Shown here: piece after piece, positions 56,457-62,212 of the stretch
Position numbering within the stretch: position 1 is the stretch's first letter
Layout: the number at the start of each line of letters is the position of its first letter
Origin: Deltaproteobacteria bacterium TMED58
GTDB taxonomy: Bacteria; Desulfobacterota_D; UBA1144
Direction: 5' to 3'
DNA: 64,000 bases
Assembly: GCA_002167555.2 (NCBI GenBank)
Contig: NHDL02000003.1
Coordinates: forward strand, 83,107 to 147,106
The notes under the pieces: model-generated
Seen by the model: the letters and a program-made list of their open reading frames with translations, nothing else
Told to the model about the DNA's origin: nothing
Database searches by the model: none
Made by a program: the position numbers and the translations under genes

Positions 56457-56800
56457 TGGAGGCGCTGGGAATCGAACCCAGGTCCGGAAATCAGCTAAAT
56501 AGAGCCTCTACATGCTTATTTTAGCTTTAATTTAAAAATATCCCCTGTGGCTAAAAAACAAAAGATACTTCGATTCTCTTAAATACTAATAAAAAGTCAG
56601 AGAAAACATTTTTATCAGGCCTATATAAATGACATTGAAAAAAACCCTATAGGCAAAGTTATTTCCAATGTTGCTACTCTATTTTAGGCAGCAAGTTGAT
56701 TGATTGGTTCTGCACTTATTGTGCGAGTGCCAGTTTAACGAGTTAGCTCTCGGCATGCAGCATCTAAATGCTCAATTTACGTCGAAACCAAATCGCCCCC
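56457..56800 (-). ncRNA. ssrA: Transfer-messenger RNA (tmRNA, one-piece)
   Basis: About 344 bases on the minus strand. The 5' end GGGGGCGATTTGGTTTCGACG and the 3' end TGGGTTCGATTCCCAGCGCCTCCA are the tmRNA hallmarks. The seven-pair acceptor stem forms perfectly (GGGGGCG with CGCCUCC), including the G3-U70 pair used for alanylation. The discriminator is A, and CCA is not encoded. The central part carries the tag frame. smpB is directly upstream. Confidence 0.96.
56684..56713 (-). other. ssrA: tmRNA proteolysis-tag reading frame
   Basis: The frame resumes at a GCA codon (56713-56711) after ATAAGT and encodes AEPINQLAA, then TAA. With the alanine carried by the tmRNA, the tag would be A-AEPINQLAA, ten residues. 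The Leu-Ala-Ala ending matches the recognition end used by ClpXP-type proteases. The tag is short, like that of E. coli, but with a different middle. Confidence 0.85.
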
Positions 56801-57287: not shown

Positions 57288-58262
57288 TTAGAAAAGTGTC
57301 ATAACCCCAAATGCAGCTGAAATTGTAGTTAAAGGAGCCAGGTCTTCTTGAGTTTCTGTTGCATTTTTTAACTTTCTTACAGAATTAAGTGCATCATAAT
57401 ATAGCCTATCATCATTAATAAGCTTTCCTAAAGTTCCCTCACCAGAATTAATTTTAGATACTAAAGAATTTAAATTGCGGGATAAATCATTTATAGAATC
57501 ATAGAGTTCCTCGTCATTAATTAGCCTACCAAGTGATCCATCACCAGTTGCTAATTTGTCAGTAAGCATATTTATCTTCTCTAAAGTATCTTTTGCTTTT
57601 AAATAAACAGATTTATCATTTATTAATAGTCCTAAGGTCCCATCACCTTGATCAATTTTTTTTGTTATATTTGAAAAAAAATCCAAGCTTGATTTTAAAT
57701 CATCATATATTGAGGGATCATTAACAAGTTTACCAATTGTTCCTTTTGAGTTGGCGACATTTGATACAATTATATTAAGATTTGATAAAATCGATTTGAT
57801 TTGATCATTATATTCAAATAATTGGGAGTTAAACATATCAACTGTTTTATCTAATTTTGTTATAAGTGTATTAAAATCAACGGGTTTGGTTGATAGGATA
57901 ACTCCACCATCACTAAGTATCCTAGAATTGGGAGACCCAAAAGTAATTCCTACATAGGTACTACCAAGAAGGCTTGTCATATTAATCGAGGCAATTGAGT
58001 CATCCTTCAAAATAACTTCTTTGTCGACAGAAATTTCAACCGCTACATTTTGACCAGATAAAGTAATTTTCTTTACTCTACCAACTTCAACACCTGATAG
58101 CTTAACTTCATTGCCAACTCTAAGCTCACCAACAGAGGAAAAATAACTTGTATAAGTATTTTCCTTTTTTAAAAAATCAACACCTGACACGACTTCAAAA
58201 AGAATCAAGAGAGCTACGATTCCAAAAACAAAAAAAGTCCCAAGTTGCATTTTTTTATTCAT
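57288..58262 (-). CDS. mlaD: MCE-domain lipid transport protein (MlaD-like) with GTLG repeats
   Basis: A 324-residue periplasmic MCE protein. A membrane anchor (about 7-26) and one MCE domain (about 36-120; VGELRVGNEVKLSGVEVGRV) are followed by a helical region. In that region a motif G-x-G-[TS]-[IL]-G-x-L-[VI]-N-D recurs four times with a 34-residue period (near 173, 207, 241, 275). E. coli MlaD is about 180 residues and lacks this tail. It follows mlaF by 14 bases. Confidence 0.9.
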   Translation of the reverse strand: MNKKMQLGTFFVFGIVALLILFEVVSGVDFLKKENTYTSYFSSVGELRVGNEVKLSGVEVGRVKKITLSGQNVAVEISVDKEVILKDDSIASINMTSLLGSTYVGITFGSPNSRILSDGGVILSTKPVDFNTLITKLDKTVDMFNSQLFEYNDQIKSILSNLNIIVSNVANSKGTIGKLVNDPSIYDDLKSSLDFFSNITKKIDQGDGTLGLLINDKSVYLKAKDTLEKINMLTDKLATGDGSLGRLINDEELYDSINDLSRNLNSLVSKINSGEGTLGKLINDDRLYYDALNSVRKLKNATETQEDLAPLTTISAAFGVMTLF

Positions 58263-58276
58263 AACAGATATTCTAC

Positions 58277-58990
58277 CTAAATTGGCTCTAAAATTGCATT
58301 ATTTGATTCTTTTATAGTATCTACAGAGCCTGAAATAATAATTTTACCATTCTCAAGTATTGAGATTTTATCAGCAATTGAATATGCAAAATTAATATCA
58401 TGAGTTACTACAATTTGCGTTATAGAACTATCATTCTTAAGTTTTTTTATGATTTGTGCTATAACTTTTGTATTAATTGGATCAAGTTCTGCAGTGGGCT
58501 CATCATAAAGCAAGATATCAGGAGAAATAATTAAAGATCTAGCAATAGCAACCCTTTTTCTCATACCACCACTTAATTCAGATGGAAAGCTTTTTGCAGA
58601 ATCCTGAATTCCTAAATCTGATAATATATCATATGCTTTATTAACTCTCTCATCTTTTGAACCAATACGATTCTCATCAAGAAATATAGTTATATTGTCT
58701 AAAACATTCAATGAATTTAAAAGAGCAGATGATTGAAAAATATAAGATAAAATTAAATCATTTTCATTAACCGCAATATTTAAATCCTTATTATCAATTA
58801 GAATTCTTCCAAGTTCAGGTTTAAAGAGCCCCATAATCATTTTTAATAAAACAGATTTACCTGTTCCTGATTTACCCAAAATTACATGGACTTCTTTATT
58901 CTTGAATTCACATGTAATTTGATCTATAACGGTCTTTCCTTCAAAACCTTTCGAAACATTATCTAATTTTATAGCCAAAAAATTCTTCAT
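58277..58990 (-). CDS. mlaF: Mla-type lipid transport ATPase
   Basis: A 237-residue ABC ATPase. Walker A VILGKSGTGKSVLLKM, signature LSGGMRKRVAIARSL and Walker B ILLYDEPTAELDP are the MlaF/Ttg2A forms. I start at ATG 58990, which overlaps the mlaE stop by 4 bases. The open frame continues to 59128 but only over mlaE. No STAS protein (MlaB) is present. Confidence 0.95.
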   Translation of the reverse strand: MKNFLAIKLDNVSKGFEGKTVIDQITCEFKNKEVHVILGKSGTGKSVLLKMIMGLFKPELGRILIDNKDLNIAVNENDLILSYIFQSSALLNSLNVLDNITIFLDENRIGSKDERVNKAYDILSDLGIQDSAKSFPSELSGGMRKRVAIARSLIISPDILLYDEPTAELDPINTKVIAQIIKKLKNDSSITQIVVTHDINFAYSIADKISILENGKIIISGSVDTIKESNNAILEPI

Positions 58991-59754
58991 AATAGTCCCA
59001 CAAGAATTAAAAATCTTGTTAAAAAGTAATCCAGTATTAGTATCGATATGAAAGATGCTACTACAGATTTTGTTACCGAGCTTCCAATCTCCCTTGGTCC
59101 ACCTGAGGCAAGTAATCCAACAGAACAAGAAATAATCGAAATAGTTACCGCAAAAAATAGAGATTTAATCAGTCCAACAGCTATATCAGAAATAGTTACC
59201 ACCTGACTTAAATCATTATAAAAAGATGAAAATGATACAGAAATAGTTTGATTCATTGAGGAAACTAGAGATCCACCAAGCCATCCAATTAAATCCATAT
59301 AAATTACCAAAAAAGGTAGAGTTACTAAACAAGCCAGAAACCTAGGCAGTACAAGATATGTAACAGGATCTATCTTCATTGTTTCCAAGGCAGATATTTC
59401 CTCATAAATTTTCATAGATGAAATCTCCGCTGTTATAGAAGACCCAACTCTTCCTGCCATTAAAATTGCAGCCATTACAGGTGCAAGCTCTGTACACAAT
59501 GAAACTCCAACAATACCTCCAATCTTATCTTCAATACCATAGCCTGACAACTGAATTCCTGTCTGTAAAGCCAGGACTGAACCAATTGATAATGAAATCA
59601 AAGCGGCTACAGGTAGCGTTCTATTTCCCATATCAAATACTTGGAAAAGAAACTTATCAACATTTGTAGAGAATGATTTAATTGATTTTAAGGTCTTCCA
59701 TAAAAGATCTAAAAACTCCCCAATACCAATGGCAACCTTAGTAAAATTATTCAT
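58987..59754 (-). CDS. mlaE: Mla-type lipid transport permease
   Basis: A 255-residue MlaE/YrbE permease with five or six helices. Motifs include GIVGVSLCTELAPVMAAILM and AGRVGSSITAEISSMKI, followed by EEISALETMKIDP. With MlaF and MlaD it would move phospholipids between the membranes. It overlaps the repeat-protein gene upstream by 4 bases. Confidence 0.95.
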   Translation of the reverse strand: MNNFTKVAIGIGEFLDLLWKTLKSIKSFSTNVDKFLFQVFDMGNRTLPVAALISLSIGSVLALQTGIQLSGYGIEDKIGGIVGVSLCTELAPVMAAILMAGRVGSSITAEISSMKIYEEISALETMKIDPVTYLVLPRFLACLVTLPFLVIYMDLIGWLGGSLVSSMNQTISVSFSSFYNDLSQVVTISDIAVGLIKSLFFAVTISIISCSVGLLASGGPREIGSSVTKSVVASFISILILDYFLTRFLILVGLL

Positions 59755-61136
59755 AAGCTTATAGGTATATATAATATTCTAATTTTCTTTTTCTCACCAG
59801 TCTCAAGACCTATCAAACCACCTAAAATATTAAATTTATTTGATGATGAATCTGATTCATTAGAAATAATGGGTAAAAGAATATTGATTGCAAATCTTTT
59901 TTTGTTTTCTATTTTATTATTTTTATAACTTATAAAATTAAATAGAATAGAAGTTTCAGACAGGGTGTTATCATTCCTTACTCGAATCAAAGACCAAAGT
60001 GGAGACCAGATTTTTCTCACTTTAACATTATTTGAGAAAAAACTCTCTACTGGGGAAAGTATTCGTAAATCATAGCCATTTAAATCAGAATCTTTAGAGT
60101 ATATAGGCCAGAAGCTTGAAAATTCTTTTTTTATTTTATTCTCTCTTAAATCATAGTAAGTATCTTGCTTATATAAGAAAAATAAAAAACTTTTAGTTTT
60201 AAAATAATCAGTGCCCAGAATCTCATTTTTATATTTATATAAAGGCCAAAGAAAAAAACCTTTTTCAACATTTTTTGTTTTAACATAGGAATAAAATGGA
60301 AAGAACCTTTTACTTTTTATATTAGCTCCTTGCTTATATTGGATAAATGGCCAAGGCATATTGTAGGTTTTTTGGTTTCGTATCTTATCAACATAGACAT
60401 TAAAGAATGGCCAGAGATAAGTCCTAGCTTCATGAACTGTTGAAGTTGATGAGAGATAAAATGGAAAATATGCTTTCTCCTCAAGATTAAGTCCTTTGGT
60501 CAAATCCCTTTTATAGCTGTAAAAGGGCCATAAGAAGAATTTGCTTTCTTTAACAACAGAAATCCCTTGATTATCAACCTTATTTACATATCCAAACAAA
60601 GGCCATAGCTTAAAACCTGATACGTACTTTCCTTCTGTTTTTGAAATAATTGGCCAAAGAAAATGTGTATTTTCCGAATTTTTTACTTTTGTTTTCAAAT
60701 ACAAGGGAAAAAATAAATAGTTTATCTCATCCTTTGTAAACTTATTTTTTAAGTTTCCATAAATTGGAAAAAAAGAAAAATAGTCATTTTCTTTTTTTCC
60801 AGACCATGAGATATCTAATATTGGGAATATAGAAAAATTTTTCTCCTGTAAGTTATCATAATCATTAAAATTCTTGTATTTTATTAAATAAAAAAAAGCT
60901 TGAAATTGATTTCGTTGATTATCTTCTTGATATCCAATAAAAGGATAAAGTATATCTAGAGATCTATATTTTAATTCATAGTTCGCCTCGTAATAAACTA
61001 GTGGTCTAAATGCATAAACTTTTGAGCCTGAATCTTTTTTAAATTCAAAGAATGGGCCAAAGAATGTCTCTTCATAAGCTAAAGAATTGGTAGGTATAAG
61101 AAAAATAAAAAGAAGTAAGATTATTTTTATTTTCAT
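59751..61136 (-). CDS. Secreted aromatic-Pro repeat protein of the Mla operon, unknown function
   Basis: I do not recognise this 461-residue protein. A signal peptide (about 1-20, ending NSLAY) is followed by some 16 short repeats of the form [FL][FW]P[FLI][FYI]xxY, for example LWPLFGY (177), LWPFYSY (202), LWPFFNV (241), PWPFIQY (261), FFPFYSY (278), LWPLYKY (296) and FWPIYSK (342). They recur every ~17-25 residues, separated by charged Lys/Asn/Glu stretches. Alternating aromatic and charged stretches suggest beta strands, perhaps an outer-membrane barrel or sheet. It is tightly coupled to alr and mlaE by 4-base overlaps, hinting at a role in lipid transport. Confidence 0.75.
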   Translation of the reverse strand: MKIKIILLLFIFLIPTNSLAYEETFFGPFFEFKKDSGSKVYAFRPLVYYEANYELKYRSLDILYPFIGYQEDNQRNQFQAFFYLIKYKNFNDYDNLQEKNFSIFPILDISWSGKKENDYFSFFPIYGNLKNKFTKDEINYLFFPLYLKTKVKNSENTHFLWPIISKTEGKYVSGFKLWPLFGYVNKVDNQGISVVKESKFFLWPFYSYKRDLTKGLNLEEKAYFPFYLSSTSTVHEARTYLWPFFNVYVDKIRNQKTYNMPWPFIQYKQGANIKSKRFFPFYSYVKTKNVEKGFFLWPLYKYKNEILGTDYFKTKSFLFFLYKQDTYYDLRENKIKKEFSSFWPIYSKDSDLNGYDLRILSPVESFFSNNVKVRKIWSPLWSLIRVRNDNTLSETSILFNFISYKNNKIENKKRFAINILLPIISNESDSSSNKFNILGGLIGLETGEKKKIRILYIPISL

Positions 61137-62212
61137 TTATAAATCCTCTTAACTCTTTTGCTAATACCACATATTATTTCATATGGAATGGTTTCACAGA
61201 TTTCAGCTACTTCATTGGCTGATATTTTATCGTTACCAAAGATTGTCACATCATCTCCTACTTTAGGATTTCTGACATTAGAAATATCTATAATTGTAAG
61301 ATCCATGCAAACTCTGCCTAAAATTGGGCACTCTATATTATTACAAACAACTTTACCTTTATTGGAAAGTGCTCGAGGTAAACCATCAGCATAACCAATT
61401 GGAATAACGCCTATCTTCATATTCCCCTTAGCTGTAAAGGTTCTCCCATAACTTATTGAATCACCCTCTTTTATATTTCTTATTTTTATTACTGAGGTCT
61501 TTAGTTCCATTATGGGATAAAAATTATTGTCATCAGAATAAAGGCCATATAAAGCTAATCCGGGTCTAATCATATTTAAATGAGAATCTTTAAAATTAAA
61601 TATTCCTGAACTGTTTGCAATATGAAAAAAATCTATGCCGGTTATAGCATTTTTATAATCTGTAATAATTTTATTAAATTCCATTATCTGTAATTTTGTA
61701 AAAGAAGAAGTTTTTAAATTAGATTCCGGAAAATGAGTATAGATTCCTGTTAAAGATAAATTCTTATTTTTTTTAATAATATCAATTGATTCTGGGATTT
61801 CTTTAATTTCTATTCCTAGTCTATTCATTCCAGTATCAATCTTTAGATGAAAAGGAATATTATTTATATTTTTAAGAGAGTTTATAAAATGAAGCTGAGA
61901 TATGTCATATATTGTAAAAACAATATCTCTTGAGATCGAGCTAATTATTTCCTCATTAGTTATTGAACCTAGAATTAAGATATTTGCCTTAATTCCCGCA
62001 GACTGAATCTCTATAGCTTCTTCATATGTTGCAACTGCTAAGTCATTTACGTTTAATGATGTAAGTTTCTTGCTAATTTCAACCGAACCATGTCCGTAAG
62101 CATTAGCCTTGACAACCGCAAGTATTCTTACTCCATTTCCAATTTTTTTTCTAATGCTAGCAACATTTTTCTCTAAATTTGTTAATTTAATTTCGGCAAA
62201 TGCAAATGACAT
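61133..62212 (-). CDS. alr: Alanine racemase
   Basis: A 359-residue PLP enzyme making D-alanine for peptidoglycan. The PLP lysine is in AVVKANAYGHG, the catalytic Tyr in GDSISYGRTF, and RPGLALYG and GYADGLPR are typical. First gene of the alr-repeat protein-mlaEFD-smpB-ssrA-rdgB-pyrG-RNB run. It is divergent from the MFS transporter. Confidence 0.96.
   Translation of the reverse strand: MSFAFAEIKLTNLEKNVASIRKKIGNGVRILAVVKANAYGHGSVEISKKLTSLNVNDLAVATYEEAIEIQSAGIKANILILGSITNEEIISSISRDIVFTIYDISQLHFINSLKNINNIPFHLKIDTGMNRLGIEIKEIPESIDIIKKNKNLSLTGIYTHFPESNLKTSSFTKLQIMEFNKIITDYKNAITGIDFFHIANSSGIFNFKDSHLNMIRPGLALYGLYSDDNNFYPIMELKTSVIKIRNIKEGDSISYGRTFTAKGNMKIGVIPIGYADGLPRALSNKGKVVCNNIECPILGRVCMDLTIIDISNVRNPKVGDDVTIFGNDKISANEVAEICETIPYEIICGISKRVKRIYK

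Follow-up and report, generated by a model that had tools for sequence, protein, structure and literature searches.

The repeat protein gene and its operon

The window, a stretch of 64,000 nucleotides of contig NHDL02000003.1 from Deltaproteobacteria bacterium TMED58 (phylum Desulfobacterota_D; contig positions 83,107 to 147,106), carries on its minus strand a gene (P0001, 59751–61136) that encodes, from an ATG start, a predicted secreted protein of 461 residues built of aromatic-proline β-hairpin repeats. The gene lies in an operon for a lipid ATP-binding cassette (ABC) transporter of the Mla/MCE type, as judged from the adjacent genes for MlaE, MlaF and an MCE-domain MlaD, the order in the window being alr – repeat protein – mlaE – mlaF – mlaD – smpB. 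Overlaps of 4 bases with both alr and mlaE had been noted in the initial annotation, and both were found to measure 4 bp; the gene of the repeat protein thus belongs to the tight unit running from alr to smpB. Its upstream neighbour, alr (61133–62212, minus strand), encodes alanine racemase (TIGR00492, E 2.5e-115). Downstream, mlaE (58987–59754, minus strand; PF02405, E 2.8e-70) encodes a permease of the subtype linked to the repeat protein, and mlaF (58277–58993, minus strand; PF00005, E 3.4e-31) an ABC ATPase of 238 residues counted from an internal ATG, the listed open reading frame beginning farther upstream at a TTG.

Secretion of the repeat protein is predicted because its N-terminus is hydrophobic and offers a plausible cleavage site between SLA and YEE, in agreement with the secreted 461-residue product first proposed for this open reading frame. 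The putative signal peptide covers residues 1–20 (61077–61136, minus strand), with cleavage after SLA; in the AlphaFold model residues 2–11 form a helix and the predicted local distance difference test (pLDDT) is low around residues 15–19. Residues 26–458 (59763–61061, minus strand) make up an array of approximately 18–20 β-hairpins with turns of the [FL][WF]P[FLI][FY] type, as delineated from motif conservation and the AlphaFold model. There are 13 occurrences of the strict pattern [FLIWYM][FWYL]P[FLIVW], whereas 2000 shuffled sequences contained 0.89 on average and never more than 5, and 15 motif prolines, spaced mostly by 17–25 residues, are conserved in the alignment of the phylum, so that the earlier count of about 16 copies was a fair one. 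Hydrophobicity around the motif proline is highest at positions −2 to +2 (about 85–100%), and the residues 6–8 positions away on both sides are mainly charged or polar. The protein contains no cysteine, and Phe, Tyr and Trp together account for 21% of its mature part.

The protein had been described as unrecognised, and profile searches left it so: no match above cut-off was obtained for it in Pfam, NCBIfam or, by sequence and profile, the PDB, and 26 family members gave nothing above cut-off in Pfam (E 0.01) or NCBIfam. Weak matches to NCBIfam NF047486 (the leptospiral LA_1737 family) were seen in three Desulfuromonadales/Methylomirabilota members (22.7, 17.7 and 15.5 bits), all far under the 60-bit cut-off, and the window protein did not match it. 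There was no sequence match to the MlaA or MlaC families, and none to the repeat protein among plasmid records. A literature search found no paper describing it either; the family is regarded as previously unnamed and undescribed.

Distribution of the family and linkage to one type of MlaE

With the window protein as the query, the repeat protein was found in 25 of 40 relatives, and within the window's phylum a profile of 18 sequences detected it in 39 of 57 genomes, which belong to 21 of 22 genera. A wider search outside the phylum yielded further genomes with E-values of 1e-49 to 1e-96, and in G083 a match of 1e-24 that was split; the phyla around G212, G226 and G083 were represented by one to three genomes each, all of them positive. 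The named carriers comprise at least Methylomirabilota, Geobacteraceae/Desulfuromonadales, Thermodesulfatator autotrophicus, Verrucomicrobiota (including Cephaloticoccus primus), Planctomycetota, Spirochaetota, Sumerlaeota and UBP10. Judged from these sequence matches, the family spans at least eight phyla of two-membraned bacteria, and the initial attribution of the protein to the lineage of the window was too narrow. Family members of other phyla are 19–27% identical to the window protein, yet the motif prolines P45, P65, P124, P144, P162, P179, P225, P280 and P298, as well as G127, are invariant over 26 diverse sequences. As the family alignment has no conserved run of 7–10 columns, MlaE was used as the bait for the genome scan. 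A protein of 612 residues with similar short hydrophobic-proline repeats (L073, 8041–9879, minus strand) gave a marginal match (E 1e-10 to 1e-15) outside mla operons; it may be distantly related or have acquired its repeats by convergence, and was left out of the family as unproven.

In all of the 51 confident non-redundant loci examined, an mla gene adjoins the gene of the repeat protein on the same strand. Three gene orders were found (X being the repeat protein), namely X-E-F-D, including the contig-cut forms X-E-F and X-E, F-X-E-D and E-F-D-X. About 25 of the 51 loci were fetched by the MlaE bait and are therefore biased, the unbiased part consisting of the phylum scan and the 11 confident foreign hits; these hits, obtained outside the phylum with the family itself, were all located in mla operons (11/11). 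Confident homologues thus co-occur with mlaEFD across at least eight phyla and in three orders, and none was found away from mlaEFD, the finding that by the initial annotation would have refuted its proposal. This linkage, which is about as strong as sequence evidence allows, supports the earlier view of the protein as a component of the Mla transporter, and it is very probable that the repeat protein is a functional partner of MlaEFD.

The linkage concerns one type of MlaE. Genomes of the phylum contain up to three MlaE proteins, the identity of which to the window MlaE is bimodal, with 46–100% for the linked type and at most 38% for the others, the exception at 69% being a scrap of 42 residues at a contig end. 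All 37 genomes of the phylum with an MlaE of the linked type carry the family, adjoining on the same contig, and the linked type is absent from all 18 family-negative genomes; two family-positive genomes (G036 and G056) are without it, the family gene lying near a contig end in both. A link to any MlaE was rejected, since no family member adjoins the paralogues of at most 38% identity that these genomes also contain. In the evolutionary tree of 114 MlaE proteins, the presence of the family needs 6 changes, as against 37.5 with shuffled labels, and one clade of 45 MlaE proteins holds 43 of the 50 carriers. The carriers outside this clade (L065/L070, L066/L067, L133 and L121/L131, the last with gappy rows) point to independent gains or losses. 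In genus g6 of the phylum (13 species; L074, 6428–7225, and L079, 5992–6789) the linked unit of repeat protein and its MlaE is missing; the genomes have kept only a divergent MlaE, with no MlaD within the several kb fetched.

A role in cell-wall metabolism exerted through alr, with the adjacency to mlaE arising by chance, would draw on the 4-bp overlap with alr in the window and on the position of alr, which precedes the repeat protein gene in most examined loci of the phylum. In other phyla, however, alr either does not adjoin the repeat protein gene or occupies the opposite end of the operon, as in L066 and L067 (alr-E-F-D-X), and thus the repeat protein stays with mla and not with alr. Moreover, Alphaproteobacteria have alr-mlaE-mlaF without the repeat protein. 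A peptidoglycan role through alr is extremely improbable and was rejected, as alr is not a constant neighbour and mla genes adjoin in every confident locus examined. On the other side of the operon, a transfer-messenger RNA gene (56457–56800, minus strand; tag peptide AEPINQLAA) lies between smpB and an rdgB-like gene, 34 bp from smpB; this pairing of ssrA and smpB is ordinary but tight.

Predicted fold of the repeat protein

Models were obtained with AlphaFold2 from 26 sequences, the alignments consisting of the window protein and related loci only. The model of the window protein reached a pLDDT of 91.3 and a predicted template modelling score of 0.77; for that of a Desulfuromonadales member the values were 89.2 and 0.76. 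Both models consist of 44–46 antiparallel strands with a median length of 6 residues and short turns between them; in the 44-strand model the strands are mostly of 5–8 residues and one reaches 9. At one end of the hairpins the turns contain the WP/FP motifs, and the aromatic turns should therefore all line one edge of the sheet.

The structural matches of the first model were TCP10/CPAP (Z 12.0, 6.7 Å), MORN1 of T. brucei (Z 11.8, 3.9 Å over 156 residues) and OspA, and those of the second TCP10 (Z 12.1, 9.6 Å), OspA (Z 10.1, 3.9 Å over 117 residues) and MORN (Z 9.6, 12.1 Å, 162 residues). Like these proteins, the repeat protein is predicted to form an elongated antiparallel sheet whose short strands are arranged as hairpins; from MORN proteins the repeat protein differs in its hydrophobic WP turns, its predicted secretion and the lack of a MORN motif, which was found in none of the 26 members. 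Foldseek matches to WD40 and teneurin proteins were left unused because of a root-mean-square deviation above 15 Å.

Fully stretched, 44 strands of 4.8 Å each would measure about 21 nm, near the width of the periplasm. It is conceivable, though we hold it to be rather improbable, that the repeat protein is a novel type of bridge-like lipid-transfer protein, a single-layer β-ribbon of up to about 20 nm along whose continuous aromatic edge lipids would slide between MlaEFD and the outer membrane. If true, this would represent an alternative to the β-groove bridges (LptA, TamB) and to helical MCE tunnels.

The MlaD tail and the probable connection to the outer membrane

MlaA (PF04333) and MlaC (PF05494) were found in none of the 57 genomes of the phylum, that of the window included, while the E. 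coli and Caulobacter controls were positive; the absence of both, first remarked in the window, is therefore borne out for the phylum. The system resembles MlaA-MlaC-MlaFEDB of E. coli in its MlaE/F/D core, at the level of Pfam matches, and departs from that six-component system in the absence of MlaA and MlaC throughout the phylum. In Veillonella parvula, MlaD has its own C-terminal outer-membrane β-barrel and reaches the outer membrane without MlaA and MlaC; the ancestral core has been proposed to be MlaEFD, and MlaD of the PVC and FCB groups lacks the barrel altogether (Grasekamp et al., PMC10665443). That paper describes no extra component, and a search of its text for one did not turn up the repeat protein. 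With Verrucomicrobiota and Planctomycetota among the carriers, the family fits the barrel gap noted for PVC (PMC10665443). The window's system shares with the minimal MlaEFD of V. parvula the possession of MlaE/F/D without MlaA and MlaC, an MlaD longer than that of E. coli and the requirement for access to the outer membrane without MlaC. In V. parvula, however, the outer-membrane part is the barrel of MlaD, whereas here an MlaD of 324 residues with a short hydrophobic tail is always accompanied by a separate secreted protein. In chloroplasts, the MCE-type ABC transporter TGD1-2-3 has a separate outer-envelope partner, TGD4, which has been described as a barrel-type protein. The separate partner is the point of likeness; the repeat protein models are unlike a barrel.

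MlaD of the window (57288–58262, minus strand) consists of a membrane anchor, an MCE domain (residues 34–109; PF02470, E 3.6e-19) and a long helical region. It has no C-terminal barrel, since barrel-bearing proteins comprise about 420 residues or more and its 324 residues leave no room for one after the MCE and helical parts, as is also the case in the relatives L030 and L031. It ends in the hydrophobic tail EDLAPLTTISAAFGVMTLF (57291–57347, minus strand), the feature that is coupled to the repeat protein: MlaD proteins of carriers have a short hydrophobic C-terminal tail of the type [DE]QxPISxxGxxxGxLF-COOH. A tail score based on a substitution matrix and built only from the window's phylum was applied to the remaining loci, where it told 30 carriers from 31 non-carriers with an area under the curve of 0.984 (p 4e-11), and the corresponding value for the hydropathy of the last 14 residues of MlaD was 0.999. 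By a simple rule the tail is present in 37 of 38 carriers and in none of 29 non-carriers. Conversely, an MlaD of more than 400 residues, the size of the barrel-bearing proteins, was found in 13 of the 29 non-carriers and in no carrier (0/38). In L097, with an MlaE of the main clade and without the family, MlaD has 418 residues and a C-terminal extension of β-type sequence, as though one arrangement had been exchanged for the other. Further barrel-less MlaD proteins, in Omnitrophota (L104, L108, L109, L112, L115 and L124) and in L076, L080 and L082, end in [HN]PWKLL or PSW/L..FG.PPP; such tails may mark additional undescribed docking partners.

The mutual exclusion of the repeat protein and a barrel-sized MlaD, the case of L097, and the aromatic-rich sequence with its all-β prediction could also be explained by a true transmembrane β-barrel in the outer membrane, either the split-off barrel of a long MlaD or an analogue of TGD4, which would take lipids from MlaD. 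This is unlikely, as the predicted strands seem too short for crossing a membrane (only one of the 44 has 9 residues or more), open single-layer sheets score best in the structural comparison, ahead of porins and LptD, and a C-terminal aromatic signal is not conserved across the family alignment. Structure prediction, which the initial annotation had suggested for deciding between β-barrel and β-sheet, leans towards a sheet of the single-layer type and disfavours a classical outer-membrane barrel.

The strict coupling to the barrel-less type of MlaD would likewise be expected of a structural scaffold or sheath keeping the helical tube of MlaD in place, or anchoring it to the wall, without contacting lipid, and a long ribbon could run along the tube; yet no known wall-binding domain was found in the Pfam search of the 26 members and the aromatic edge suggests contact with membrane or lipid, which makes a mere scaffold quite unlikely. 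A soluble or peripheral periplasmic lipid carrier, shuttling in the manner of MlaC, would agree with the absence of MlaC, with secretion mostly without a lipobox and with a strong aromatic content that could line a lipid site. The elongated open sheet is, however, predicted to have no obvious closed pocket, and the long helical region of MlaD and its special tail point to contact instead of a shuttle, so that we consider this explanation quite unlikely as well.

On balance, we favour a dedicated partner of MlaEFD with a β-ribbon fold that replaces MlaA and MlaC, or the barrel of MlaD, and docks the tip of MlaD at the outer membrane. The repeat protein would be exported to the periplasm and fold into an extended antiparallel ribbon of some 20 β-hairpins, its Trp/Phe-Pro-rich turns forming a single aromatic edge. 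The MlaD hexamer would span the periplasm and its six hydrophobic tails would dock on the repeat protein, which would hold the tip of MlaD at the periplasmic face of the outer membrane, with the aromatic edge placed in or against the inner leaflet or lining the lipid path. A lipid path would then connect the outer membrane with the channel of MlaD, the direction of transport not being legible from the sequence, and the repeat protein would take the role of MlaA plus MlaC, or of the C-terminal barrel of a long MlaD. The initial suggestion of an outer-membrane or bridging component is consistent with the absence of MlaA and MlaC, the coupling to the MlaD tail and the exclusion of barrel-bearing MlaD; the location at the outer membrane is presumptive, and a classical barrel is disfavoured.

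Several points weigh against this docking arrangement. The position at the outer membrane and the contacts with MlaD and with lipid are inferred, and the fold is a prediction, the Z values for MORN, TCP10 and OspA indicating a widespread single-layer sheet arrangement rather than kinship or function. The tail rule (37 of 38 carriers) was fixed after the tails had been seen, with related sequences counted repeatedly, and in a tree-controlled test four to five of five independent pairs went in the same direction and none in the opposite one (p 0.0625), five pairs being unable to give p < 0.05. Planctomycetota locus L090 (8570–9526, plus strand) combines an F-ending MlaD tail and a main-clade MlaE with no family member in the fetched stretch, although the repeat protein may be encoded elsewhere in that genome. 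A lipobox-like cysteine is present in some family members and absent from most, which bears on the mode of membrane attachment. Finally, the counts of the MlaE-bait scan are lower bounds and do not represent a census.

For the many bacteria that possess MlaEFD and lack MlaA, MlaC and a barrel-bearing MlaD, the link between pump and outer membrane is unsettled. The repeat protein is a real, widespread and undescribed component of a known kind of system; its family fills that place in several such lineages, being probably the missing piece that lets MlaEFD reach the outer membrane, while the mechanism proposed here is a guess, if a well-founded one. From the coupling to the MlaD tail follows the testable prediction that this tail docks onto the repeat protein, and the family makes a distinct type of Mla system recognisable by sequence.
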